Source: Dolichospermum sp. DET69 | GTDB taxonomy: Bacteria > Cyanobacteriota > Cyanobacteriia > Cyanobacteriales > Nostocaceae | DNA length: 64,000 bases | Assembly (NCBI GenBank): GCA_017355425.1 | Contig: CP070233.1 | Coordinates: 1,342,501 to 1,406,500, forward strand | Direction of reading: 5' to 3' | In this document: positions 28,824-64,000 of the stretch, one piece after another | Layout of the letters: every line of letters begins with the position of its first letter | Position numbering within the stretch: the first letter of the stretch is position 1 | Translations under genes and position numbers: made by a program | The notes under the pieces: generated by a model | Seen by the model: the letters and a program-made list of their open reading frames with translations, nothing else | Database searches by the model: none | What the model was told of the DNA's origin: nothing

Positions 28824-29044
28824 TGGGTGTTATTAGCAAAAGAATACTTCGGGAATTTTGGGAAAAGCACTCCCAAGCAGAATCAGGACTTTTATTATGG
28901 TATCAGCGCATCTCCGATGCTCACTTAGTAACTTTTAATGATGTTAAACGAATTTTTCGATCAGCAGACTGTAACCACTATATAAAACTAATTACTATAT
29001 TTCCTCCACGACCAATTACCAATGAAGATGAATTAATTGTCTGA
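28823..29044 (+). pseudogene. higBA relic: HigB N-terminus joined to HigA N-terminus
   Basis: Residues 1-49 (MGVISKRILREFWEKHSQAE and onward to DVKRIFRSAD) match the N-terminal half of HigB mRNA-interferase toxins. After that the sequence changes to NHYIKLITIFPPRPITNEDE, which resembles the start of the HigA antitoxin that normally follows. The toxin's second half is thus deleted and the antitoxin is cut after about 20 residues, where the 79-bp minisatellite begins and supplies the stop codon. The product cannot be a working toxin. Confidence 0.65.
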
Positions 29045-30122
29045 ATCAGGATACCCAGGATTTTAGGCTTTTCAGGATTGTTATTGATGAATTATCTGTG
29101 AGTTATAGATTTTAATTGTCTGAATCAGGATACCCAGGATTTTAGGCTTTTCAGGATTGTTATTGATGAATTATCTGTGAGTTATAGATTTTAATTGTCT
29201 GAATCAGGATACCCAGGATTTGAGGCTTTTCAGGATTGTTATTGATGAATTATCTGTGAGTTATAGATTTTAATTGTCTGAATCAGGATACCCAGGATTT
29301 GAGGATTTTCAGGATTGTTATTGATGAATTATCTGTGAGTTATAGATTTTAATTGTCTGAATCAGGATAGCCAGGATTTGAGGATTTTCAGGATTGTTAT
29401 TGATGAATTATCTGTGAGTTACAGATTTTAATTGTCTGAATCAGGATACCCAGGATTTGAGGCTTTTCAGGATTGTTATTGATGAATTATCTGTGAGTTA
29501 TAGATTTTAATTGTCTGAATCAGGATACCCAGGATTTGAGGATTTTCAGGATTGTTATTGATGAATTATCTGTGAGTTATAGATTTTAATTGTCTGAATC
29601 AGGATACCCAGGATTTGAGGATTTTCAGGATTGTTATTGATGAATTATCTGTGAGTTATAGATTTTAATTGTCTGAATCAGGATACCCAGGATTTGAGGA
29701 TTTTCAGGATTGTTATTGATGAATTATCTGTGAGTTACAGATTTTAATTGTCTGAATCAGGATAGCCAGGATTTGAGGATTTTCAGGATTGTTATTGATG
29801 AATTATCTGTGAGTTATAGATTTTAATTGTCTGAATCAGGATACCCAGAATTTGAGAATTTTCAGGATTGTTATTGATGAATTATCTGTGAGTTATAGAT
29901 TTTAATTGTCTGAATCAGGATAGCCAGGATTTGAGGATTTTCAGGATTGTTATTGATGAATTATCTGTGAGTTATAGATTTTAATTGTCTGAATCAGGAT
30001 ACCCAGGATTTTAGGCTTTTCAGGATTGTTATTGATGAATTATCTGTGAGTTACAGATTTTAATTGTCTGAATCAGGATACCCAGGATTTGAGGATTTTC
30101 AGGATTGTTATTGATGAATTAT
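29041..30122. repeat. Minisatellite of 79-bp units, about 13.7 copies
   Basis: Units start every 79 bp at 29041, 29120, 29199 and so on to 30068, each with CTGAATCAGGATACCCAGG. Copies differ at few sites (TACCC/TAGCC, TTTTAGGC/TTTGAGGA, GTTATAG/GTTACAG). The unit contains the CTGAATCAGGAT motif of a repeat also found singly at 49302-49440 and near 15440-15480. No copy codes for protein. Confidence 0.97.
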
Positions 30123-52389: not shown

Positions 52390-52809
52390 ATGAATAAAAC
52401 AAGTCTCAGAGGTCTAGGTTTATTAGCGGCAATACTATCTTTGGCTACTGGTTGTGGTCTAAGTAATTCTCCCATTACGCGGAACCAAGGGTCAGAACGA
52501 ACTCTTAATTTTCCGACTAATCGCTCTTTAGGTAAACTCTATATCCTAGAAGAGAACCTTCATTTTCTGAGCGGTTTGGGTAAGGAAGAAAAAGGAGAAG
52601 CACAAGGTAGCGTTCGTGTTGTAGTACCAGATGGATGGTTGCTAGAATTGCGGGTAAGTTCCGAAGCATCCAGCGATCTTTCTGCACTCTCTGCCCTTAA
52701 AGCTAATGATTTACAGGCAATCTCTCTATTACAATTGATAAAAAAAGACTTTTTCCTTCTTGTTATGCGCCATAGTGCGATCGCTTTTTGGGGTGTGAGA
52801 GGGCGATAG
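52390..52809 (+). CDS. Lipoprotein, C-terminus replaced by repeat DNA
   Basis: A 139-residue frame with a lipoprotein signal: LRGLGLLAAILSLATGCGLS, lipobox LATGC with Cys22 as the lipid anchor. The mature part (NFPTNRSLGKLYILEENLHF, and VRVVVPDGWLLELRVSSEAS) looks like a beta-rich domain in cyanobacterial lipoproteins of unknown function. The last residues (MRHSAIAFWGVRGR) are translated from the HIP1 array that starts about 52776, so the original end is lost or the frame is shortened. Whether it is still made is unclear. Confidence 0.55.
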   Translation: MNKTSLRGLGLLAAILSLATGCGLSNSPITRNQGSERTLNFPTNRSLGKLYILEENLHFLSGLGKEEKGEAQGSVRVVVPDGWLLELRVSSEASSDLSALSALKANDLQAISLLQLIKKDFFLLVMRHSAIAFWGVRGR

Positions 52810-53130
52810 CGAAGCGCGACCTAGGAATCGCTTTTGGGAATGTGGAGGGGTGATCGCTTTTTGGGATGTGAGGGGGCGATCGCTTTTTGAGGGTGTGGGA
52901 GTGCGATCGCTTTTGGGGATGTGAGGGGCGATCGCTTTTGGGGATATGGGAGGGGCGATCGCTTTTTGGATGTGGGAGGGCGATAGCGAAGCGCTCCGTA
53001 GGAATCGCTTTTTTAGGATGTGGAAGGTGCGATAGCGAAGCGCTCCGTAGGAATCGCTTTTGGAGGATGTGGGAGGGCGATAACGTACCCGCAAAGGCAC
53101 TCAGTCCTCCGTAGGAATCGCTTTTTCGTC
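52776..53130. repeat. HIP1-based tandem array 1
   Basis: Imperfect units of about 28 bp, of the form GCGATCGCTTTTTGGGATGT plus GGGAGG. Several HIP1 octamers are split between GCGAT and CGC by insertions: 52808-52828, 52985-53005 and 53034-53054 (21 bp each) and 53082-53118 (37 bp). Confidence 0.9.
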
Positions 53131-53230
53131 CATGTTGGTGTGGGCTTTTCCCATTTTCTTCGATTCAGATTAGAATGAAGATAATATTCAGATTCAGTAT
53201 TCAACACTTATTGTAAGAGAATTACTAATC

Positions 53231-53449
53231 ATGACTAAACTAGAAATAAATCAATTCCAGTCTAATCTGACTAAATATCTTGACTTGGTAATCAAAGGAG
53301 AGAAAATCATTATTACACAAGATAATAAACCAGTGGCAGAAATTTCCCCAATTCAACGCCCATTGAAACGAGGTAGTGCTAAAGGAAAAGTGTGGATATC
53401 ATCAGATTTTAACGAACCTCTCGAAGACTTTAAGGATTATATGGAATGA
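53231..53449 (+). CDS. Phd/YefM-family antitoxin
   Basis: A 72-residue antitoxin with the Phd fold: MTKLEINQFQSNLTKYLDLV, then IKGEKIIITQDNKPVAEISP, the DNA-binding and dimer part. The acidic C-terminus (DFNEPLEDFKDYME) should bind the toxin. Its stop overlaps the toxin start by 4 bp (ATGA). It stands between HIP1 arrays 1 and 2. Confidence 0.85.
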   Translation: MTKLEINQFQSNLTKYLDLVIKGEKIIITQDNKPVAEISPIQRPLKRGSAKGKVWISSDFNEPLEDFKDYME

Positions 53450-53832
53450 AATTATTATTGGATACCCAAATAATTATTTGGTTCGTTAACGATGATCCGC
53501 AACTGAATGATCATCTAAAAGATTTAATCGAAGACAAAAACAATACCATTTATTTAAGTATTGCTAGTCTTTGGGAAATGTCTATTAAATATAATTTAGG
53601 AAAACTAAAATTTGAGAGGTCATATCAAGAGTTTGTTGAGTTAGAAATTATCCAAAGTTGTATCAATTTACTTGACATCAAAGTAAACCACCTTTATGTT
53701 CATTCCCATTTGCCATTGCATCATAAAGACCCCTTTGATCGGCTCATTATTGCTCAATCCATAGCCGAAAATATTCCTCTCATCTCCGTTGATTCTATTT
53801 TTTCGCAGTACCCTGTAACAATAATCAATTAA
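53446..53832 (+). CDS. VapC-like PIN-domain toxin
   Basis: A 128-residue PIN-domain protein of the type paired with Phd antitoxins. Metal-binding acidic residues are visible in MKLLLDTQIIIWFVND (D6), LSIASLWEMSIKYNLGK (E about 43), HHKDPFDRLIIAQSIAE (D about 94) and LISVDSIFSQYP (D about 114). It should act as an RNase. Directly after it, array 2 begins. Confidence 0.88.
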   Translation: MKLLLDTQIIIWFVNDDPQLNDHLKDLIEDKNNTIYLSIASLWEMSIKYNLGKLKFERSYQEFVELEIIQSCINLLDIKVNHLYVHSHLPLHHKDPFDRLIIAQSIAENIPLISVDSIFSQYPVTIIN

Positions 53833-53839
53833 CTAGTAC

Positions 53840-54180
53840 GATAGCGAAGCGCTCCGTAGGAATCGCTTTTTTGGGATGTGGGGGTGCGATCGTTTTTTTG
53901 GGGATGTGGAGGGGCGATCGCTTTTGGGGATGTGGAGGGGCGATCGCTTTTTGGGATGTGGAGGGCGATCGCTTTTTGGATGTGGGGGATGCGATCGCTT
54001 TTTTGGGATGTGGGGGTGCGATCGCTTGTTGAGGGTGTGGGAATGGGCGATCGCTTTTTGGGGATGTGGGGAATGGGCGATCGCTGTTTGGGATGTGGAG
54101 GGGCGATAGCGAAGCGCTGCTGCAAGCAGTTCGCTGTTTGGATGTGGGGTGCGATAGCGAAGCGCTCCGTAGGAATCACA
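53840..54180. repeat. HIP1-based tandem array 2
   Basis: The same type of unit as array 1 with about nine HIP1 sites. Insertions at the same point of the octamer stand at 53843-53863 (21 bp), 54108-54131 (24 bp) and 54156-54176 (21 bp). Confidence 0.9.
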
Positions 54181-54243
54181 AATATCTCATAAAAACTTTT
54201 GCGGTTATAATTATTAGCAATACAGTAAGTTATATTTGCTGCT

Positions 54244-54450
54244 ATGAGTAACGCATTACAATACATCTGTGATTCAGAAGGGCAAACAGTTTCCGTAGTT
54301 GTCCCCATTGCCCTTTGGCAAGAAATAATTGCTGAGAGAGAAACTGCTTATCTACTGAGTAGTCCAGCCATGAAAGCAAGATTACTTACAGCTAGAAAAC
54401 GTCAAGATGGAATTTCTTTAGAAGCAGCCTGTGAAAAACTTGGAATTTGA
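54244..54450 (+). CDS. Antitoxin of a YoeB-type toxin
   Basis: A 68-residue protein, MSNALQYICDSEGQTVSVVV with PIALWQEIIAERETAYLLSS next. The pattern is a degenerate Phd-like or RelB-like antitoxin common in cyanobacteria, with a C-terminal segment KRQDGISLEAACEKLGI. The toxin start lies 20 bp inside its 3' end, so both are translated together. Confidence 0.75.
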   Translation: MSNALQYICDSEGQTVSVVVPIALWQEIIAERETAYLLSSPAMKARLLTARKRQDGISLEAACEKLGI

Positions 54451-54688
54451 TGCAGATGCTTTTGAGGACTTAGCTTGGTGGATCGAAAGCGACCGTAAAA
54501 AAGCATTAAAAATCATCAAACTAATTCGTGAAGTACAACGTAATCCATTTGAAGGAACAGGACAACCTGAAGCTCTAAAACACGATCTATCTGGCTGCTG
54601 GTCACGGCGAATCGATCAAGAACATCGTCTGGTTTATGAAGTCCTAGATGATAAAATCAGAATTCTCGCCTGTCGCTTTCACTACTGA
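54431..54688 (+). CDS. Txe/YoeB-family toxin
   Basis: An 85-residue ribosome-dependent mRNA interferase of the YoeB family. It begins with a GTG inside the antitoxin gene: MKNLEFDADAFEDLAWWIES, then ALKIIKLIREVQRNPFEGTG, then the active-site part LSGCWSRRIDQEHRLVYEV and the C-terminal ACRFHY with the conserved His-Tyr. Family length is normal and the catalytic residues are there. Array 3 starts right after it. Confidence 0.88.
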   Translation: MKNLEFDADAFEDLAWWIESDRKKALKIIKLIREVQRNPFEGTGQPEALKHDLSGCWSRRIDQEHRLVYEVLDDKIRILACRFHY

Positions 54689-54689
54689 A

Positions 54690-54800
54690 AATCGCTTTTG
54701 GGGATGTGGAGGGCGATAGAGCAAGCGCTGACTTGTCAGTTCGCTTTTTGGGATGTGGGAGGGCGATAGCGAAGCGCTCCGCAGGAATCACTTGTTGGGG
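54690..54800. repeat. HIP1-based tandem array 3
   Basis: A short array of the same unit between the YoeB-type gene and the end of the TnsD/TniQ-type gene. Insertions into HIP1 sites lie at 54718-54741 (24 bp) and 54768-54788 (21 bp). Confidence 0.85.
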
Positions 54801-54824
54801 GGATGTGGGGGTACAGCTAGTGTG

Positions 54825-56165
54825 TTAATTCTGAATTTCCTGTGAGTCTACCGAATTATATTCCTTTTCAGTTGGCCAATGAGTTTTCAACTGAAGTCGA
54901 GATACATAACGTACCACAGTTCTGGCATCAACATGAAGTCGTCTTGCTGTCTCCCGCAAACCTAATTTTTCTACTTCTACTAATACCTTTAACTTCTGTT
55001 CCCATACTTCACCAAAGGCTTTAATTTTACCGATGCGTATTTTATCATCATCATTTTGATCGGGACCTGTTCGACAATAAATCATGCCACAAGCACAAGA
55101 AAAAGTACCCACAGGTTTTTTAGCATCACAACATAGAGTAATTGTCAAATTTTTAATTACTGGCTGAAAATAATGGTCTGCCGCAGCATTGAGACATAGC
55201 CAAGGTGGATTACCAAAAGGTTTGTATTCGTAATTGTGTTGGAAAAATTCTTCAGGTGATGTTTGCAAAAATCTCATCATCAGTAAATGCCTGATGGGAT
55301 GAAAGGATTTTCTATGCTTCCTAACAATACTACTAACCCAGTTATTTTTATTCGTGAAACTCACTATCGAATTGACTGCATTGAGAACTTCACGACCGTA
55401 AAATAATAAGAAACTATCTAGTAATTTCTTCTGATAGATTCGACCAGTAGCTGTTGCCAAACCATGCTCAATCATCAAGTTGACATATCGTTTCTGAAAC
55501 CAATTAATTGCCTGGGAAGTTAAGTTACTATTTATCAACCAAAAGATATCTTTAGCCAATACCAGCAATTTTTCTAGTGTTTCACGACTATAAATATTAT
55601 CCTGCTTATTTATATGACAATTTCTTGTACTACTTGCATAATATTCATGTCTATTAAAGCCTTGTAAAGAGACTATACTATTTTGCAAAACTTGCCGATG
55701 TAATGGACAAACTAATACTCCTGGTGTTTGATGGATACGATGCCAGTATGACTCTCCATAATTGTGTAAATCTTCTTCTAAACAAGTAGGGCAAAACCGA
55801 AAATACTTAGGCATAGTGATTGAACTTGCCATAATTCCGGCTCTGGTATGAATATCGCCTCCATCATCTCCTTTCATTGATTCTAAAACTTGACTTGCCC
55901 TTTCTGTCGGTAAAAAAGGACTATATAACGGGTAAAGAGTATGTTTATATATCAAATCTTCTATCTGATAATTTGAAACAAACTGAAGATTTTTAATTAA
56001 ATAATCAAGATTAGATGGTAAATCAATTGTCGCTATAGTAGTTTGCGAATTAAACAATTCCTTGAGTGTCGTTTTTGGACTGGTATTACCACTTCTAATA
56101 TGGTAACGGGCAAGAATACTGTACAAGATTTCATCTGGATAAGGCTTGGGTAAAAAACTAATCAT
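54825..56165 (-). CDS. TnsD/TniQ-family transposition protein
   Basis: A 446-residue target-selection protein of Tn7-like transposons. The N-terminal TniQ domain begins SFLPKPYPDEILYSILARYH and includes a zinc-binding part (FCPTCLEEDLHNYGESYWHR, then VCPLHRQ). More Cys residues lie near 345-370 (CCDAKKPVGTFSCACGMIYC). A helix-turn-helix (LGLRETARRLHVDARTVVRY) is near the C-terminus. In the TnsD family more sequence usually follows, so the protein may be shortened at the end, just where HIP1 array 3 starts. In type I-B CASTs TnsD directs insertion to a chromosomal site without a guide RNA. Its own promoter region is shared with the divergent intron-split gene. Confidence 0.82.
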   Translation of the reverse strand: MISFLPKPYPDEILYSILARYHIRSGNTSPKTTLKELFNSQTTIATIDLPSNLDYLIKNLQFVSNYQIEDLIYKHTLYPLYSPFLPTERASQVLESMKGDDGGDIHTRAGIMASSITMPKYFRFCPTCLEEDLHNYGESYWHRIHQTPGVLVCPLHRQVLQNSIVSLQGFNRHEYYASSTRNCHINKQDNIYSRETLEKLLVLAKDIFWLINSNLTSQAINWFQKRYVNLMIEHGLATATGRIYQKKLLDSFLLFYGREVLNAVNSIVSFTNKNNWVSSIVRKHRKSFHPIRHLLMMRFLQTSPEEFFQHNYEYKPFGNPPWLCLNAAADHYFQPVIKNLTITLCCDAKKPVGTFSCACGMIYCRTGPDQNDDDKIRIGKIKAFGEVWEQKLKVLVEVEKLGLRETARRLHVDARTVVRYVSRLQLKTHWPTEKEYNSVDSQEIQN

Positions 56166-56258
56166 AAAGAAACATCTGAACCATCTTGCAGATTCTTAAC
56201 CATCCAAGTAGTGTCATAAAGCAATATGCCCTCAGACCTAAAAATAAATATTTTAGAT

Positions 56259-56306
56259 ATTACACAATGCCTATAATAATCTAACTTCAGGCATTACACA
56301 ATACCT
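56259..56306. promoter_or_regulatory. Two 14-bp direct repeats, candidate operators
   Basis: ATTACACAATGCCT (56259-56272) and ATTACACAATACCT (56293-56306) differ at one base and are 34 bp apart, about three turns of the helix. They lie between the divergent TnsD-type gene and the intron-split gene and could bind a regulator. Inference only. Confidence 0.4.
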
Positions 56307-57018
56307 AAAATATTTTTGATGAAGTCGTAACCTTCAACTTTAGCCCCGGATGATGTTTATTATGATTAGGAGGTATTGAGTCATTAAAAACCAATGGGTA
56401 AGAAAGGGCAAAAAGGACAAAAAGACGTACCAGAACTGTACGATGAGGTGAAGAAGAGAGTTAGTGCGATTCGTTGTTAGTTGAATCACGGTATCCAGCC
56501 CGTACATAAGCTAACCAACCCAATCTAGCAATAGAAGAAGGTTGAACTCTCGGTCTGATATGGGTGAAAGTCCCATCTACCAGACTCAGGTATGACTCCC
56601 TATCTGCCTACGATGACCCGACTCGGTTTCGGGAGGTCGAAGCTCTTAACTGGACGCAACCAGACATCCGTTGTGGGGTGACACTGGTGCTAACGGGGAG
56701 TTCCCACGGTGAAACAGAGCCTAGAAAAGCAACCTACTTGTGAGCAGGACACAACATCAAAAACCTGACTTCATTGGAGATAATTCCCGCCGCATTTTTA
56801 ACTTAATAGCGGTAAGAGTCTAGGGATTCCAGTGGTTGAATTGGCTACACCTAACGGAACTATCAATCAACCGAGGGAACGAATAAAAACGAGTTGAGGG
56901 TCTGAGGGCGGTCGAACCCCAAGTAGGCTGGACGAGCAGCGGAATCCCCCCAATTCGGGTAGGACAGACCGTAATTGGTCTGAGGTGTTCAGAATACACA
57001 AATTGGAGCAGAGCATGA

Positions 57019-58591
57019 TTGGACACAGAGATAACTAAGCGTGAATCTTGGAAGACGTTGCCCTGGAAGAAATTCCGCCGCAGCCTATTCCGCCTACAAA
57101 AACGAGTGTACAAAGCGGTTCAAGTTGGCGACAAGCGCAAAGCAAAGTCCCTACAAAAGCTGATTCTGAAATCAACCGCAGCAAGATTACTGGCTATTCG
57201 TCAAGTATCACAGCTAAACGCACAGGAATTAGACCGCAGGAATTGACGGCAAAAAGTCCCTTAACTTTAAGGAACGCTTTGAGCTTAATGAACTGCTAAA
57301 AGCATCCGTTAGCAACTGGGTACACCAGGGACTAAGAGATATACCCATCCCTAAAAAGGACGGTACTATCAGGATTCTGAAAATCCCCACTATTGCTGAT
57401 AGGGCGTACCAATGCCTTATCAAATACGCATTAGAACCAGCGCACGAAGCAACCTTCCACGCTTACAGCTACGGGTTTAGGACGGGACGTTCAGCGCATG
57501 ATGCACAGAAAATCCTGTTTAATAACCTAAACTCATCCTGCAATGGAATAGATAAACGAGTTATAGAACTCGATATTGAAAAATGCTTTGATAGGATAAA
57601 CCATTCCGCCATCATGGATAAACTCATCGCTCCTAAGAGTATAAGACAGGGAATCTTCCGATGTCTCAAAGCCGGAGTTAATCCAGAGTTTCCCGAACAG
57701 GGAACACCTCAAGGGGGCGTGGTAAGTCCACTTTTAGCCAACATCGCCTTAAATGGGATTGAAAGTATTCATAGATATCACCGGATGTCAGGCTACAGAA
57801 TCACAGACAAAACCACCAGGAAAGATATTACCGAACCATCAATTCGATATGCGGACGACATGGTAATAATACTCAGACCACAAGACGATGCCACAGAAAT
57901 ACTTGATAAAATCAGTCAGTTCCTAGCAGAGCGGGGAATGAAAGTCAGTGAGAAAAAGACAAAGCTAACCGCCACGACAGATGGGTTTGATTTCCTCGGC
58001 TGGCATTTTAAAGTCCAGAAAAACGGAAAGTTTAGATGTGTTCCATCAGTGGACAACTTTAAATCTTTTCGCAAGAAAGTAAAACACATCGTCAACAACT
58101 CGAATTATGGTGCTACCACAAAGGCTGAAAAATTAGCCCCTGTAGTTAGAGGCTGGAGGAATTACCACCGCTTCTGCAAGATGGACGGGTCAAGAAACTC
58201 GTTATTTCACATCCAAAACAGAGCATTTAGGGTATTCAACAAGGAAACTAAACAGAATCGCTATACCAGTAAGCAATTACTAGATAAGGCGTTCCCAGCA
58301 GTTCCTTACTCCGAAAACAAACACATCAATGTCAAAGGTGAGAAATCACCCTACGACGGAGATTTAAGTTATTGGAGCGAACGTAACAGCAAGCTCTATG
58401 ACAACCATACCTCTAAAGCCCTTAAACGGCAAAGCCATAAATGTGGTCATTGTGGTCTTAAAATGCTCAGTGATGAGAAGGTACATTTACATCATGTTGA
58501 TGCCAATCATAACAATTGGAAACCAAAAAACCTTCTAGCAATTCATGAAAGCTGCCACGATTATATTCACATGAGCAAAAGCGAAAGCTAA
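57019..58591 (+). pseudogene. Group II intron reverse transcriptase/maturase with HNH domain, frameshifted
   Basis: A TTG or nearby start gives DTEITKRESWKTLPWKKFRR, the normal N-terminus. Near 57225-57242 one base too many shifts the frame: the first part ends at TGA 57244-57246, while the protein continues in the second frame with GIDGKKSLNFKERFELNELL. The reverse transcriptase domain follows, with VIELDIEKCFDRI, GTPQGGVVSPLLANIAL and the catalytic YADD (IRYADDMVIIL). Then come the maturase domain (VRGWRNYHRFCKMDGSRNSL) and a C-terminal HNH nuclease (CGHCGLKM and HLHHVDANHNNWKPKNLLAI). The longest unbroken frame with an ATG is 57614-58591. Confidence 0.85.
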
Positions 58592-58599
58592 GAATATCG

Positions 58600-58675
58600 G
58601 AAGCTGGGTGCGGTGAAAGTCGCACGCCCAGATTTAACAGAGAGGGGCGCGGGATAATACCCGCCCTCGACTCTA
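58600..58675 (+). ncRNA. Group II intron domains V and VI
   Basis: Domain V: AAGCTGGGTGCGGTGAAAGT with its pairing arm CGCACGCCCAG. Domain VI: arms GAGGGGCGCGGG and CCCGCCCTC with a bulged A in the ATAATA loop region, the likely branch point. Confidence 0.8.
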
Positions 58676-59050
58676 CCACCTAGCCCTAACTCCTACGGGG
58701 ATTAATGGATTGGATGCGATCGCATCTAGCCTAGATATCAGCAGATCAGAACTTGTGGAGCAAATTGGCACGAAGCGAATTCTCTTGGATGTTAATGCCT
58801 TAACAGAGGAGGATAGAGAAGCCATAAAAAAGCTCTGACAGAACTGATTGCTCTTTACCGTGAGCGTCTTAGCAGTCAGAGTTTATCTGCTGGTAATAGT
58901 TATGAGGGAAGCGTTAGCGAAGCTGACAGTAGGTATCTGATAATACAAATACAAAACCAAATTGAGCAATGGGAGGAAATCCTCTCAAAAATTTCTCAGT
59001 AAAACGGTAATTAGCACGAGTTATCTCACTCCCCAAAGCCGGAGAATACA

Positions 59051-59302
59051 ACTGCTCAACGCCTGACGGCATCTAATGCTGAAGCACCTGCGAACACTGC
59101 CAAACCAAGCGAAATCGGAAAAAGCACTGCTCAACGCCTGACGGCATCTAATGCTGAACCACGTTGATAATATTGCTCTAAATGGCGGGACTTTGACTGC
59201 TCAACGCCTGACGGCATCTAATGCTGAACCACGGTGGGATTCTTGTATTTGTCTAGCGACTTTAGACTGCTCAACGCCTGACGGCATCTAATGCTGAACC
59301 AC
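59051..59302 (-). CRISPR. CRISPR array, 4 repeats and 3 spacers
   Basis: Repeats of 37 bp stand at 59051-59087, 59126-59162, 59196-59232 and 59266-59302. On the minus strand, the direction of the cas genes, each starts GTGGTTCAGCATTAGATGCC and ends GTTGAGCAGT. Spacers are 38, 33 and 33 bp (59088-59125, 59163-59195, 59233-59265). Read from the cas side, the last repeat (59051-59087) has one change (C to G on the plus strand at 59084) and the spacer before it is longer. The array follows cas5 with a 270-bp AT-rich leader. Short arrays are typical of CASTs. Confidence 0.95.
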
Positions 59303-59575
59303 AGCGATTAGTACAGCCTATGAACTGTAGGGCTTCCTAAACGATTTTACAAGCACCTCCAATTAGAAATGAGTAAGTTTGCAAAATTTAACAGTTTAGC
59401 GTCAGTGAATGTAACCCAAAAGGTTTATGTTTAAAAGCTTTCCAATTAATTGCAAGCATATTTTATAAGAACAAAAACGCTGTGTTGCCTATCAGGTAAG
59501 GTATTGATACTACTCATCAATGAATTTTAACTGAACAGGCACATATCCTTGTAAAAATCTCAATATCCTCTATAT
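59303..59575 (-). promoter_or_regulatory. AT-rich leader between cas5 and the CRISPR array
   Basis: No gene is seen. The region is AT-rich and adjoins the perfect repeat at 59266-59302, fitting a leader with the array promoter. I cannot point to a specific -10 box. Confidence 0.5.
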
Positions 59576-60208
59576 TCAGACAGATTGAATGACAGTCCAT
59601 GATAAATCAGGGGGTTGCCATATTTGAGATTCTTGTAGTGTGTAACGTTGCCAACGAGTTCCCTTTGAGCCAACATGATCAACCCAATAAGGTAAGGTCA
59701 AAAACCCTGTTTCATCTTGAATTAACCATAGTAGAGACTCTCCTTGATAGTTCTCTGGTACAAAACTCACGGCATTGACAAGATCCCTGCTTTCACCCAG
59801 GCAAAGTCCACCAAAACGATTGACTGAAGCAGGATTGTTAAAAGCTTGCTGTAATCGTTCTAGTAAAGTAGGTGTTGCTTGATCTTCTCCTGTTTTTAAC
59901 CAAACAACCAATTCAATATTGGTAAGTAATTCCTGGTAATCAGGACGAGAATTACTAAGATCATGAATATTCTTCTTTTTAAATCGCCTGGATGTGCGAA
60001 TGACAACGGACTTTTCTGGTTCGGAGAGTAGAGCTATGGCTAATTTTACACCACAATGCTTATATCTATTTTCTTCCCCTACAAGAGACAATAACATTCC
60101 ATATACTGTTGATGGAGGAGGTACGGGGTATGTTTCAGCGTATTCTCTGGCACGAGATTGGCGAAAACACGCTATGGGTACTTCGACTTTTAAGGCAATT
60201 GTTGTCAA
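59576..60208 (-). CDS. cas5: Cas5, type I-B (I-MYXAN/DevS-like)
   Basis: A 210-residue Cas5 subunit of a type I Cascade complex that holds the 5' handle of the guide RNA. The N-terminal pattern IALKVEVPIACFRQSRAREY with AETYPVPPPSTVYGMLLSLV is the RAMP fold seen in Cas5/DevS. It ends a four-gene run, 16 bp after cas7. It is the last cas gene before the array. Confidence 0.88.
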   Translation of the reverse strand: MTTIALKVEVPIACFRQSRAREYAETYPVPPPSTVYGMLLSLVGEENRYKHCGVKLAIALLSEPEKSVVIRTSRRFKKKNIHDLSNSRPDYQELLTNIELVVWLKTGEDQATPTLLERLQQAFNNPASVNRFGGLCLGESRDLVNAVSFVPENYQGESLLWLIQDETGFLTLPYWVDHVGSKGTRWQRYTLQESQIWQPPDLSWTVIQSV

Positions 60209-60224
60209 ATTATTAACTCCTTAA

Positions 60225-61160
60225 TTAGAGATGCAAATCTTGATTAATTACCTGTTTTAATGCTGCTACGGCTGCCTTCACACCGGGAAAAACATGAGTC
60301 CCTAAATCCTCTAAATCCCTAGAAATTGCACCCCCAATCCATAATTCATTAGGTTCAATATCTCCAGCCTCAATTCTTCGTACTAAATCTGGCACAGATA
60401 TATTTCCTAATTCATCAGTTTCAAAACAATAAAGAATGCGAGGGGAAAAATCATGTGTCCACCGCAAGATTATACTTTCGGGAGAGAAGTCATAGAGAAA
60501 ACGGGCATGATTTCCTGCAACTTCACCAATGGAAATTAAGCCATCGAGAATAGCATTTATACGAACTTGATCTGTTAGACTTTGAGGTATTAGTGCAAAC
60601 CCATATTGATAACGAGTAGCGTGAACTTCTGTTCCATAAAGAGAAGTTCGTTCTTTTTTACCACTTACTGCATTAAAAGTAATATCCCCAGCGAAAGGAA
60701 TCATTGATACTGCACGAGTAACTTCTAATGCACCTCGTCTAGCGGTTTTTTTCCCTTTAGGCTTTTGCTTACTCTTGGCTTTACGAGTTTTTTTGTTTTG
60801 ATCTAATGTTTCTTCCTGTAATTCATCTTCAGATTCCTCAGATATTTCGTTTTTTGCTGCTTCTGCCCGCATAAACCCCAACACATCATCATCTATAAAG
60901 CGAACATTATCAAAGTTGATATCTTGCCAAACGTGTTCTGATTCTGGTTGGGCATTCTCATTCCAAATTCGATTTACTGGATAACCAGAATTTTGCCAAT
61001 AGTAACGTAATGCCCAACGAATCGCTTCCGCAGAAACAGTAGTATGTACTTCTCCTTTCCATATTATTTTCTGCAAAGAAGTTATATTACCTTCATTTTC
61101 TCCACGATTATTAGCTGCTGTTCCATAACTGGTCAGAATATTACCAAATAGATGTAACAT
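60225..61160 (-). CDS. cas7: Cas7, type I-B (DevR/Cst2-like)
   Basis: A 311-residue Cas7, the backbone subunit that lines the guide RNA in Cascade. It begins MLHLFGNILTSYGTAANNRG and has the family features SAEAIRWALRYYW, SMIPFAGDITFNAV, LYGTEVHATRYQYGFALIPQ and GNHARFLYDFSPESII. Residues about 102-140 are a charged linker (Glu-rich, then Lys-rich) between two folded parts. The gene lies 47 bp after cas8. Confidence 0.9.
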   Translation of the reverse strand: MLHLFGNILTSYGTAANNRGENEGNITSLQKIIWKGEVHTTVSAEAIRWALRYYWQNSGYPVNRIWNENAQPESEHVWQDINFDNVRFIDDDVLGFMRAEAAKNEISEESEDELQEETLDQNKKTRKAKSKQKPKGKKTARRGALEVTRAVSMIPFAGDITFNAVSGKKERTSLYGTEVHATRYQYGFALIPQSLTDQVRINAILDGLISIGEVAGNHARFLYDFSPESIILRWTHDFSPRILYCFETDELGNISVPDLVRRIEAGDIEPNELWIGGAISRDLEDLGTHVFPGVKAAVAALKQVINQDLHL

Positions 61161-61207
61161 AAGGGTTATTGAATTGAAATCAATTATTTAATTATGTAAA
61201 AGTGTGA

Positions 61208-62737
61208 TTAACTTTCAGATTTTCCTGACGTTTCTAATCCAGGTTCTTTTCTTTTTTGATAACTGGCAATAGCAATAAACGTTAAATCTCTAGCTATCTG
61301 CCAATTAGTTGCTCCGGTGGTAATAGGTAGTAGTTCTTCCCAATGTTCCTGTAAAATTGAGATTTGCCCTGCTTTACCCCAAAATTCAGCAATAAATTTT
61401 CTAAAATTATCTGCATTAGTACAGCGTCCTAATTGAGATACAAGTCGTTTGTTTTCACGTTCTATTTGTGCATAATCTCCTTCCTTAGTATTTGAATATA
61501 TTTTGGCGTATCTTTTCCTTAATGCTTCATGGCAAGCTAGGATAAAAAGCTTTTGACTAGGAAAATCAAAGTTTGAATTTTGAATCATATTGTATATTTG
61601 TTTGTGTTCTTTAAAAATTTGGTTTAATAGATTTTTATTTTTTATCTTTATATAAAAGTTAGACCACCAGGGGAAACCTTTTGCTAAATTATCTGCTATC
61701 ATTCCCCGAACAAAACTGATATAAAGACAATTTTGATTTTTGTACTGAAAAAAGCCTGTATCTGCAAAATATCTACGGCTGATTTGATAGTAATAGTCAA
61801 TTTTTTCGTTTAATTCAACTATAGCGATTTCTATACGAGTTTTTTGTCGTTCAGACCAATCTGCTGTTCCAAATAGTATTACTTGGCATTGCTTCACTGG
61901 ATTAAGCTGATTCATTTCTCCAGCGTTAGCGTAAGTCAAAAATTTTAATCCAGCATCTCCTATGCTAGAGGCATGGAAATATTTGTAACTCAAGTTCTCT
62001 AATTGCCAATAATACTGGGCATATAGTTCTAAATCCAGCACTTTAGGAATAATTAGAGCATACTGTGTCTCGTCAGGAGAAATGGGCGATAGCAAAGCAA
62101 AATACTGACACGCCATAGGTGCAAATAATAAAATTAGAGCATATTCTGGTTTTTCTTTAAACGTGGTTTCTTTTTCAAAGGCATAATGACGAACTACACA
62201 TCCAGGATATAACCAACCTTTTACACCAATTGGATTTTTTAAGAATTGTCCATGATTATCACAGAGATGTTTAGCAAAGTGCTGATTTGCATAATAAGCA
62301 GCTTTTTTATACTTAACTAGAAATTTAATTTTATCAATAGTAATTAGACTAGATGCTGTACCTGCGGACTTAAAAAACTTATTGTGCTGTAAAAATGTTG
62401 CTGTAATACCTTGATGGATAACTATCTGAGTTTGTAAATCTAGTGGATTATTTAAACCCATGAGAAAGATTAATCCATTATCGCTAATCTGAAAAGATTG
62501 CTTTAATAACCAGTCTAAGACTATAAAATCTTGCCCTTCCCAAAAAAGGCTAATGCTTCGAGGAGTAAGTGACCAAGTTAAATTACCAACTCTTTGAGTA
62601 CATATAGGATAAATTTTCTCTAACTGCTTGAGAGTCATCCAAAGTCCTGCCATGCCTGCACCATGCAACCATGTCATATTAGAATCGCTTAAATTTAGCT
62701 GGATTTTTGGCTTAACTAAACTCTCAACTATCGGCAT
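61208..62737 (-). CDS. cas8: Cas8, type I-B (I-MYXAN/Cmx1-like)
   Basis: A 509-residue large subunit of the type I-B complex, needed for PAM recognition and R-loop formation in this class. It is recognised by position and by the N-terminal pattern MTWLHGAGMAGLWMTLKQLE and the C-terminal AKIYSNTKEGDYAQIERENK region typical of the Cmx1 (MYXAN) group. No nuclease motif is seen. It follows cas6 by 11 bp. Confidence 0.85.
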   Translation of the reverse strand: MPIVESLVKPKIQLNLSDSNMTWLHGAGMAGLWMTLKQLEKIYPICTQRVGNLTWSLTPRSISLFWEGQDFIVLDWLLKQSFQISDNGLIFLMGLNNPLDLQTQIVIHQGITATFLQHNKFFKSAGTASSLITIDKIKFLVKYKKAAYYANQHFAKHLCDNHGQFLKNPIGVKGWLYPGCVVRHYAFEKETTFKEKPEYALILLFAPMACQYFALLSPISPDETQYALIIPKVLDLELYAQYYWQLENLSYKYFHASSIGDAGLKFLTYANAGEMNQLNPVKQCQVILFGTADWSERQKTRIEIAIVELNEKIDYYYQISRRYFADTGFFQYKNQNCLYISFVRGMIADNLAKGFPWWSNFYIKIKNKNLLNQIFKEHKQIYNMIQNSNFDFPSQKLFILACHEALRKRYAKIYSNTKEGDYAQIERENKRLVSQLGRCTNADNFRKFIAEFWGKAGQISILQEHWEELLPITTGATNWQIARDLTFIAIASYQKRKEPGLETSGKSES

Positions 62738-62748
62738 AACAGTAATTC

Positions 62749-63447
62749 CTATCGGCTATTTTTGATCGGGACAAATACTCCACAACCCATTTTGTGTTTT
62801 CCGCCAATACCGTACACTTGCAGCATCAATGAATCTTCATCACTGAGATTTTTCACCTCTAATCTAAAACCTACAACTGTGAACTTCTTGATTTTGATAG
62901 TTCTACGTTCTGGCTGTCCATCTGTGTTAGTAGGAATGCGAACTGTTCCTTGAATACCCAGTTTTTCTAGTTGGCGTTGTGCTGCTGCTAAAAACGTTTC
63001 TGGTTGTTCATAACCCTTAATTACCACGATGCGCGATCGCAAATTTTCCACAGGTTGCAGCAAGTAAATTTGAGGGATTCCCAAGCGGATAGAATGCTTG
63101 CCAATGGTCAGTGATTTTCCAGCGAAGGAATAAACCAAGGGAATTTTTTCTGCTTGTAGCCGCATCCTTAGTCTAGAATGGTCATTAAGTTGAAGTTGAA
63201 GCAAACCTTGTTTATCAGGAATGCCTGGAATAGTTTGAATACTGAGGTTATCCAGAGCATGAATTTGGGATTTTATGTGCGATAGAGCAGCATATAACCC
63301 ATAGCCATGATCTATAGGCAAAGTTTGTCCAATTATACTGAAACTTAAATCCACGTAGGTTAACTGAGGGTTTAAAGCTTCATTTGGATACATCTGCACT
63401 GAACTTTTACAAGTTTGTAGGCTGAAATTGCTACTCATGTTTTTCAT
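62749..63447 (-). CDS. cas6: Cas6 endoribonuclease, type I-B (Cmx6-like)
   Basis: A 232-residue RNA nuclease that cuts the CRISPR transcript within the repeats. The double RAMP fold is suggested by YVDLSFSIIGQTLPIDHGYG (with a possible catalytic His about residue 43) and the C-terminal Gly-rich loop VYGIGGKHKMGCGVFVPIK, the usual Cas6 signature. The start is the ATG at 63447 or 63438 (MSSNFSL). It is the first gene of the cas run on the minus strand. Confidence 0.88.
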   Translation of the reverse strand: MKNMSSNFSLQTCKSSVQMYPNEALNPQLTYVDLSFSIIGQTLPIDHGYGLYAALSHIKSQIHALDNLSIQTIPGIPDKQGLLQLQLNDHSRLRMRLQAEKIPLVYSFAGKSLTIGKHSIRLGIPQIYLLQPVENLRSRIVVIKGYEQPETFLAAAQRQLEKLGIQGTVRIPTNTDGQPERRTIKIKKFTVVGFRLEVKNLSDEDSLMLQVYGIGGKHKMGCGVFVPIKNSR

Positions 63448-63722
63448 CCCGTATCTTTAAAAATCGCTAACTATGAGACAATCTAAAGTTATTTTTTTAG
63501 ATTACCCCATTACTGAATCTTTACCGCAATGCAAATTTTAATTAATGTAAAGCTAATTATTTTTTTGAATTAAAAATTAATATATAGGAGTCCGGTTTGA
63601 TTCCTGAATTTTCCTCCGTAGGAAGGCAAGAGGCAAGGGGATTCGAGAATATGAAGGTGTACTGAGGTTTTTTCAAAAATCAAATAGGAGTCCTATATTC
63701 TATAAATTTTATTTAAAATGAG
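63448..63722. other. Noncoding gap upstream of cas6
   Basis: AT-rich, and shows two copies of TAGGAGTCC (about 63584-63592 and 63686-63694), the first followed by GGTTTGATTCCTG. No gene is seen. It could hold the cas promoter. Confidence 0.4.
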
Positions 63723-64000
63723 TTATTTGAAAAAATCTTCTATAGAAGTTGCTAAGAATTTTATTATTAAAATATGCGTAGTTCTATCTATCACTTGGTT
63801 CATATCACAGGACAGCAGACAATTAATAAAAAAAGTGTCTGGCTTTTTGAGAAGATTTGGGTTTATTGCCTTTAAACAGTTATAACCATAAAAATCTACC
63901 ATACAATCTGAAAAATATTGGTCTTGAAAAATAAACTTACCACCAGGTAAGAGACTCATAAACTTTTGCTTTACTAAATAAGACTTATATTGACTACGAA
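63723..64000 (-). CDS. Partial gene at the window edge, possibly tniQ
   Basis: The minus-strand frame is open from the edge at 64000 to a stop at 63723 (about 92 residues), passing an internal ATG at 63959. The end reads CDMNQVIDRTTHILIIKFLA and TSIEDFFK. I cannot assign it from sequence alone. In known type I-B CASTs tniQ stands just upstream of cas6, so tniQ is the first guess (position only). Confidence 0.5.
   Translation of the reverse strand, partial: RSQYKSYLVKQKFMSLLPGGKFIFQDQYFSDCMVDFYGYNCLKAINPNLLKKPDTFFINCLLSCDMNQVIDRTTHILIIKFLATSIEDFFK

Follow-up and report, generated by a model that had tools for sequence, protein, structure and literature searches.

A probable type I-B1 CRISPR-associated transposon, decayed and most likely immobile, beside glmS in Dolichospermum sp. 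DET69

Introduction

Type I-B1 CRISPR-associated Tn7-like transposons (CASTs) are RNA-guided insertion systems related to Tn7. The passages of a review that deal with them (PMC11406308) describe them as close to Tn7 and restricted to cyanobacteria, with a TnsD that targets glmS and a TniQ that resembles a truncated TnsD. The same passages place the fusion of TnsA and TnsB in types I-B2 and I-D, and state that some I-B1 CASTs have no TnsD. Here we describe a locus of Dolichospermum sp. DET69, beside glmS, which is very probably a type I-B1 CAST of the AvCAST type that has decayed and most likely cannot move. It lies partly in a stretch of 64,000 nucleotides, called the window below (contig CP070233.1, positions 1,342,501 to 1,406,500; G000:C1:1342501-1406500 in our numbering).

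The reading was extended past 64000 to 94 kb, and positions above 64000 are continued window coordinates. The genome searched comprises 6.04 Mb in two contigs. Among the locus and its relatives there are copies that appear intact (L005, G429) and others that have decayed, and the right-end signature is clear. One point is potentially new and is the part worth pursuing: a candidate regulator which, if real, would act on the choice between site-specific homing and RNA-guided insertion in I-B1 CASTs.

Results

Assignment to type I-B1

From glmS downward in coordinate, the genes on the minus strand are tnsA, tnsB, tnsC, tniQ, cas6, cas8, cas7 and cas5, followed by the CRISPR array and tnsD (Table 1). 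The original prediction, made from the letters of the window, had proposed part of a type I-B CAST. The parts that it listed (a TnsD gene, a four-repeat array, cas5, cas7, cas8 and cas6, and a split gene with a group II intron) were all located at or near where it had placed them, and the extension beyond 64000 that it recommended bears the proposal out: tniQ, tnsC, tnsB and tnsA follow directly. Both tnsA and tnsB are separate open reading frames (ORFs), as in I-B1, and not the TnsA-TnsB fusion of I-B2. The Cascade genes cas5 to cas8 stand without cas3 or cas1/cas2, as also expected of I-B1. The absence of cas1, cas2, cas3 and cas4, noticed from the window, holds for the whole element, as a scan of the ten ORFs between and including tnsD and glmS gave no match to models for these genes (glmS itself was left out of the PADLOC-type scan). 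The only other ORF of at least 100 aa in the element is that of the intron.

Structural databases point the same way. At the limits used, all matches of TnsC, TniQ and TnsD in the PDB were to Tn7 TnsC or TnsD chains: TnsC has Tn7 TnsC as its best match (E 3.2e-81), TnsD has Tn7 TnsD as its sole match (E 1.9e-40), and TniQ matches Tn7 TnsD at E 2.8e-15. TniQ contains a TniQ domain and a partial TnsD match (positions 1-106 of 355, 25.6 bits against a cut-off of 32.4), and the PADLOC model TniQ_IB is matched over positions 3-305 of 306 with 243 bits. Cas8 matches chain I of PDB entry 8fcj, a type I-B Cas8, at E 1.5e-99, and residues 387-496 of the cas8 product match a type I-B Cas11 chain. We take 8fcj to be the PmcCAST complex.

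The locus therefore shares with PmcCAST (Tn7744, type I-B2) a matching Cas8; however, type I-B2 is ruled out by the separate tnsA and tnsB and by the glmS site, whereas fused TnsAB and a tRNA site are given for I-B2 in the relevant passages of PMC11406308. With AvCAST (Tn7743), as characterized in those passages, it has in common the separate tnsA and tnsB, the Tn7-like TnsC, the glmS site, the TniQ of truncated-TnsD type, and a type I-B Cascade with a short array and without adaptation genes or Cas3. It differs from the description of AvCAST in a TnsD that is about 190 C-terminal residues short, in a left end that was not found, and in having a group II intron inside the gene that diverges from tnsD. 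Because some I-B1 CASTs lack TnsD, the truncation does not exclude membership of I-B1. Likewise, of the two ends with a 5-bp target duplication that characterize such elements, the right end is present and the left was not found; this bears on the completeness and mobility of the copy, and not on its descent.

Gene order in related elements

A TniQ profile search at E ≤ 1e-40 found 24 of 388 genomes of the order, including DET69. We read the loci of 11 of the other 23 genomes, together with Calothrix membranacea FACHB-236 (L005) and Dendronalium phyllosphericum CENA369 (L006), making 13 loci. The complete order glmS-tnsABC-tniQ-cas6-8-7-5-tnsD, with a full-length tnsD past the array, is found in four of them (L005, G429, G068 and G182, the last having its cas5 and tnsD about 13 kb apart). 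Three more have the order in part: L006, with a match to no more than the first 37 aa of tnsD; G362, where a contig fragment carries cas7-cas5-tnsD; and the decayed locus of G330. Of the other analysed stretches, that of G289 ends in cas5, that of G048 has only cas6, and those of G272, G405 and G426 have tnsC and tniQ beside glmS and no cas genes. The analysed stretch of G198 contains the cas genes, of which cas7 carries an insertion, but lacks tnsD. A second intron was considered for this insertion and rejected, as it holds instead a 457-aa ORF that looks transposase-like by eye and has no Rfam match at the gathering score.

The closest comparison is with L005 and L006, which share the gene order, a small regulator-like gene and a pair of boxes discussed below, and whose proteins are 61% (cas8), 71-74% (tnsC) and 69-74% (tnsB) identical to those of DET69. 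They differ in that the small gene is unsplit there, TnsD is 636 aa long in L005, and the spacers are not the same.

For the position of the TnsD gene on the far side of the array, the original prediction knew of no earlier description. That this position is unusual is not supported: it is the order in the related glmS-inserted elements wherever the stretch from array to tnsD could be read, and a new layout is thereby ruled out. The element recognized in the window is a further member of a known CAST family with an ordinary layout.

glmS lies inside the analysed stretch in 11 of the 13 loci; in G198 and G362 the analysis stopped short of the tnsA-proximal flank. This bears on whether the locus could be an ordinary type I-B CRISPR system that happens to stand beside unrelated tns genes, for which it can be said that the Cas proteins match I-B and MYXAN families. 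We consider this virtually impossible, in view of the lack of a cas1-4 match in the scanned ORFs of the element and the presence of tns next to cas genes in the relatives too. The extended sequence also contradicts it. The case named as refuting in the original prediction, namely cas3 and cas1/cas2 past 64000 with no transposase genes, is not what lies there, and a normal type I-B system beside a stray tnsD is ruled out by the tnsABC and tniQ that follow.

The right end and the glmS site

The right end consists of three TnsB-type repeats, 20 bp apart. It begins 26 bp past the glmS stop with the TGT end TGTGGAGGAATAAAAAAGTTGG, which is followed by two more repeats like it. The element thus sits in the Tn7 attachment site, close to the point at which Tn7 inserts, and the repeats form the array of TnsB sites that would be expected there.

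Traces of such insertions are present elsewhere in the genus. In 3 of 14 other same-genus glmS loci (G002, read on a 3.4-kb contig only, G004 and G013), right-end sequence of this kind adjoins glmS directly and gives way to sequence resembling the stretch before tnsA. The 20-kb stretches of G004 and G013 contain no tns or cas genes, and TniQ is not encoded in any of 15 other same-genus genomes. A single weak right-end match, with up to 3 mismatches, at the glmS loci of G012 and G006 was not counted. Because these right-end remnants stand at glmS without element genes, it appears from the sequences that elements of this kind have occupied the glmS site in several lineages of the genus and have mostly lost their genes. 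The downstream side of glmS varies from genome to genome among the seven same-genus genomes used for an empty-site comparison, and the left boundary is therefore not defined by it.

Elsewhere in the DET69 chromosome (L072:1460-1600, at C1:4626255), a right-end site stands with sequence like the tnsA leader away from glmS, and is perhaps a remnant of another insertion.

Truncation of TnsD and the missing left end

TnsD of DET69 is 446 aa long, compared with 627-638 aa in the four intact relatives. It aligns to residues 1-444 of the 636 of L005 TnsD at 75% identity and then ends, and it matches PF15978 over positions 1-237 of 355, where L005 TnsD matches over 1-355. By this alignment, TnsD appears to have lost about 190 C-terminal residues. 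A search for the missing part in the DET69 genome gave no match at E ≤ 10; as a control for this empty result, the same region aligns in G429, G068 and G182. A copy of a local genome repeat (D3) lies 9 bases past the tnsD stop, with five other copies between 52801 and 54203. This adjacent copy suggests a rearrangement at the tnsD stop, and may possibly be the edge of a deletion.

For Tn7 itself, the sections of PMC2918618 on truncated TnsD report that fragments from 1-350 to 1-498 of its 507 residues do not bind attTn7, and that truncated TnsD retains binding to TnsC, with 1-436 as an inactive exception. Since C-terminally cut Tn7 TnsD does not bind attTn7, homing to glmS has, by analogy, probably been lost in the DET69 copy.

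Of the TGT...ACA ends with TnsB repeats that the original prediction suggested looking for on both sides, the right one is present, but neither the end motif nor a position weight matrix (PWM) revealed a left one in the window. The pattern TTTGCTGT has two matches (42159 and 93489) and AAAAAGTTG has one (33487), in each case with no further sites nearby. The best PWM score in the first 56 kb is 14.4; ten resamples peaked at 9.9-15.8, and real sites score 18-27. Terminal patterns gave scattered weak matches only (run without a shuffle control). Across the genome the end motif has six matches: three are the right-end sites, one is a remnant resembling a right end, and two lack any end context.

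Complete elements serve as a comparison. By eye, G429 has both ends and a 5-bp duplication, ATTGT. A 6.4-kb Tn7-like element in G395 (L085:9640-16030) carries tnsABC and both ends with the duplication GCGTA, again by eye; it has no cas match, and there is no glmS match in the 20 kb read. This element adjoins an ORF that looks like a tyrosine recombinase by eye. Next to the left end of the G429 element, about 190 bp (L055:17563-17757) contain both right-type and left-type TnsB sites; the flanking 5-mers differ, and this stretch is perhaps a deletion derivative.

Several observations weigh against a decayed and immobile I-B1 element. The reversed control pattern matched nine times across the genome, against six for the end motif. 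The motif revealed no left end in L005, G068 or G182 either, and the left end of G429 was recognized by eye only, near motif hits of the abutting stretch. The missing left end is therefore weaker evidence than the truncation of TnsD, as the motif showed none in these relatives either. The complete G395 element carries a TnsD of 445 aa, so that a shortened TnsD need not be a useless one. The open tnsA-C, tniQ and cas6-8-7-5, with the array, are more in keeping with a loss that is recent or partial than with long decay. Finally, the I-B1 assignment is a sequence-based one made on the defining features of the review, and not by comparison with the AvCAST sequence.

The same facts could be read as an element that still works, in which TnsD has been remodelled to a short second target selector, transposition guided by RNA still functions, and a left end exists in diverged form. 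Beyond the open tns and cas genes and the intact G395 element, the passages of PMC12719977 on TnsD deletion lend this some weight, reporting that it raises TniQ-driven integration 3.0-fold in AvCAST. We nevertheless regard a working element as unlikely: no left end was detected in the window, TnsD homology stops 9 bases from the genome repeat, and, where G395 has three end sites right behind tnsD, DET69 has the genome repeat and no such site. The DET69 copy most likely no longer moves.

In an intact member of the family, full-length TnsD would direct insertion next to glmS, and TniQ with Cascade and CRISPR RNA (crRNA) would direct insertion at targets of the spacers; TnsC would then recruit TnsA and TnsB, and the element would be cut out and inserted. 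In the DET69 copy, a deletion or rearrangement would have taken the C-terminus of TnsD, any cargo and the left end. The group II intron lies within the small regulator-like gene, and the tns and cas genes are still open.

A candidate regulator divergent from tnsD

L005, L006 and G429 have an uninterrupted 76-aa gene divergent from tnsD, and the two exons found in the corresponding place in DET69 match it. Its protein matches Pfam RHH_1 below the cut-off (E 0.015 in L005 and 0.13 in L006; no match was reported for G429) and has no PDB sequence match at E ≤ 1. AlphaFold (three rows) predicts helices and no strand with low confidence, at a mean pLDDT (predicted local distance difference test) of 64. 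We tentatively consider the gene a candidate regulator of ribbon-helix-helix-like type, a label that comes partly from the sequence as read by eye. The ORFs upstream of tnsD in G362 and G068 have sub-threshold Pfam hits only, and no regulator is claimed there.

Between the small gene and tnsD in DET69, L005, L006 and G429 there are two 22-bp near-palindromes (in L005 form, TTAGGTATTGTGTAATGCCTAA), with starts 34-36 bp apart. Mismatches to the L005 form number 4 and 1 in DET69, 0 and 1 in L005 and L006, and 3 and 5 in G429. In 94 kb of DET69 the only two matches with at most 4 mismatches both fall in the 228-bp intergenic stretch, and none of 2000 Markov resamples of this stretch contained one. 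If 4-5 mismatches are allowed, the G429 interval gains a third match (14752), and G182 (two) and G426 (one) have scattered matches. Because L005 and L006 are close relatives, independent support for the boxes amounts to about three elements.

In DET69, L005, L006 and G110 the end of the small gene reads ATA AAA AAG, one more codon and the stop, and past it the −1 frame stays open for about 50 conserved aa (KALTELIALYRERL...). In G429 the two frames overlap in this way too, at ATC AAA AAG (a CAAAAAG run). Identity of the −1 frame protein is 54-73% in the compared pairs other than L005/L006. From the sequences, this may be a case of programmed −1 frameshifting. In G110 (L083:4101-10588), the small regulator-like gene lies 4.4 kb from glmS, with no tns or cas match in the 17.5 kb read, and could be either a remnant or a case of reuse.

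We propose, with somewhat less than even confidence, that a group of I-B1 CASTs carries its own ribbon-helix-helix-like regulator, extended by −1 frameshifting at AAAAAAG, which binds the twin boxes and sets the balance between homing to glmS and crRNA-guided insertion; in DET69 this switch would be broken on both sides, by the intron and by the cut tnsD. The nearest likeness is to Arc_1 and Arc_2 of type V-K CASTs, which in the relevant passages of PMC9938897 are small proteins of ribbon-helix-helix type encoded divergently from a key CAST gene. They differ in lying upstream of cas12k, whereas the gene described here lies upstream of tnsD, has a weak RHH_1 match, and is followed by the conserved −1 frame ORF. 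The regulator passages of this paper, which describes CvkR, concern type V-K, and those of PMC11406308 name CAST regulators for I-F3 and V-K, not for I-B1. No description of an I-B1 CAST regulator, or of a group II intron in a CAST, was found in the literature searched, a search that did not take in the primary I-B papers (Saito 2021; Hsieh and Peters 2023).

The CRISPR array and its targets

The array is probably transcribed from the minus strand, to judge from a sub-threshold match to Rfam CRISPR-DR33 and from the relatives. Searched at up to 3 mismatches, the family sample of 99 genomes contains no target for its three spacers outside the array, and patterned exact matching found none in viral contigs. 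BLAST against plasmids and phages (E ≤ 1) returned three plasmid and two phage records with E of 0.3-0.9, mostly in repeats, which we judge to be chance matches. There are two matches to cas1 in the DET69 genome. Within the 20 kb surrounding each of them the arrays are built on different repeats, and a search there for the CAST repeat found no copy.

A last alternative is that the locus no longer moves and is kept by the host for a function in trans, with TniQ-Cascade and TnsABC moving short non-autonomous elements with matching ends, or with Cascade acting as a silencer. The survival of open tns and cas genes beside damaged mobility parts would suit this, as would the right-end-like remnant elsewhere in the chromosome and the two-type-site stretch next to the G429 element. 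We think it very unlikely: in the DET69 genome only a remnant was seen and no complete short element, and the spacers found no target in the searches above. A decayed, most likely immobile I-B1 CAST is the reading that we prefer.

L005 and L006 have their last spacer in common (TAGCTC[CT]ATGTTCCTTGTAAAGTCC..., at L005:13792-13907 and L006:13785-13900), followed by an atypical repeat; their other spacers differ. It has no target in viral contigs or plasmids. I-F3 CASTs have a private-guide layout, which the shared spacer resembles; alternatively, it may be an old inherited spacer.

Features of the locus and its surroundings

The coordinates are collected in Table 1. The edges of the intron are uncertain by a base, and its 5′ edge was placed on our assumption that such introns start with GTGCG. 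The frame of the intron-encoded protein is broken near 57240.

Table 1. Features of the DET69 element, with the corresponding stretches of relatives; positions above 64000 are continued window coordinates.
Feature	Position	Strand	Basis or remark
D3-family local genome repeat copy	54761..54815		one of six copies within 52801-54815
tnsD, C-terminally truncated, 446 aa	54825..56165	-	PF15978 275 bits, PF06527 115 bits
Near-palindromic box 1, between tnsD and small gene	56253..56274		
Near-palindromic box 2	56287..56308		starts 34 bp after box 1
Small gene, exon 1, divergent from tnsD	56394..56463	+	96% identity to L005 protein residues 1-24
Group II intron inside small gene	56464..58676	+	3′ domain by Rfam RF00029 at 58599-58676, 51.4 bits
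Open 3′ part of intron-encoded reverse transcriptase/maturase	57614..58591	+	RVT_1 and GIIM above cut-off, HNH below cut-off
Small gene, exon 2	58677..58838	+	end ATA AAA AAG CTC TGA
Overlapping −1 frame ORF	58829..59002	+	right after AAAAAAG run, kept in relatives
Small-gene end and −1 ORF	window 58820-59002; L005:14023-14414; L006:13957-14348; L083:10200-10588; L054:14378-14745		
Candidate −1 frameshift stretch			ATAAAAAAGC
CRISPR array, four 36-nt repeats, three spacers (34, 34, 39 nt)	59052..59302	probably -	repeats at 59052-59087, 59127-59162, 59197-59232, 59267-59302
cas5 (Cmx5/Cas5b type)	59576..60208	-	NCBIfam or PADLOC model
cas7 (Cst2/DevR type)	60225..61160	-	NCBIfam or PADLOC model
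cas8 (Cas8a1/Csx13 type)	61208..62737	-	NCBIfam or PADLOC model
cas6 (Cmx6/Cas6b)	62749..63447	-	NCBIfam or PADLOC model
tniQ, 313 aa	63723-64664	-	3′ part is the last 278 bases of the window (63723-64000)
tnsC	64670-66346	-	TniB/AAA_22 domains
tnsB, 747 aa	66330-68573	-	Mu-transpos_C domain
tnsA, 290 aa	68583-69455	-	TnsA N- and C-terminal domains
Right end	about 69448-69513		
glmS	69540-71435	-	glmS equivalog model

To the left of the truncated tnsD, the window contains a PIN-domain gene (within 53446-54688) and a likely toxin-antitoxin pair, of YefM/YoeB type as judged by eye (54244-54450 and 54431-54688). These genes may be either cargo or chromosome. Further away, at 29033-30122, there is a tandem array with a 79-bp unit in 13.8 copies and 97% matches.

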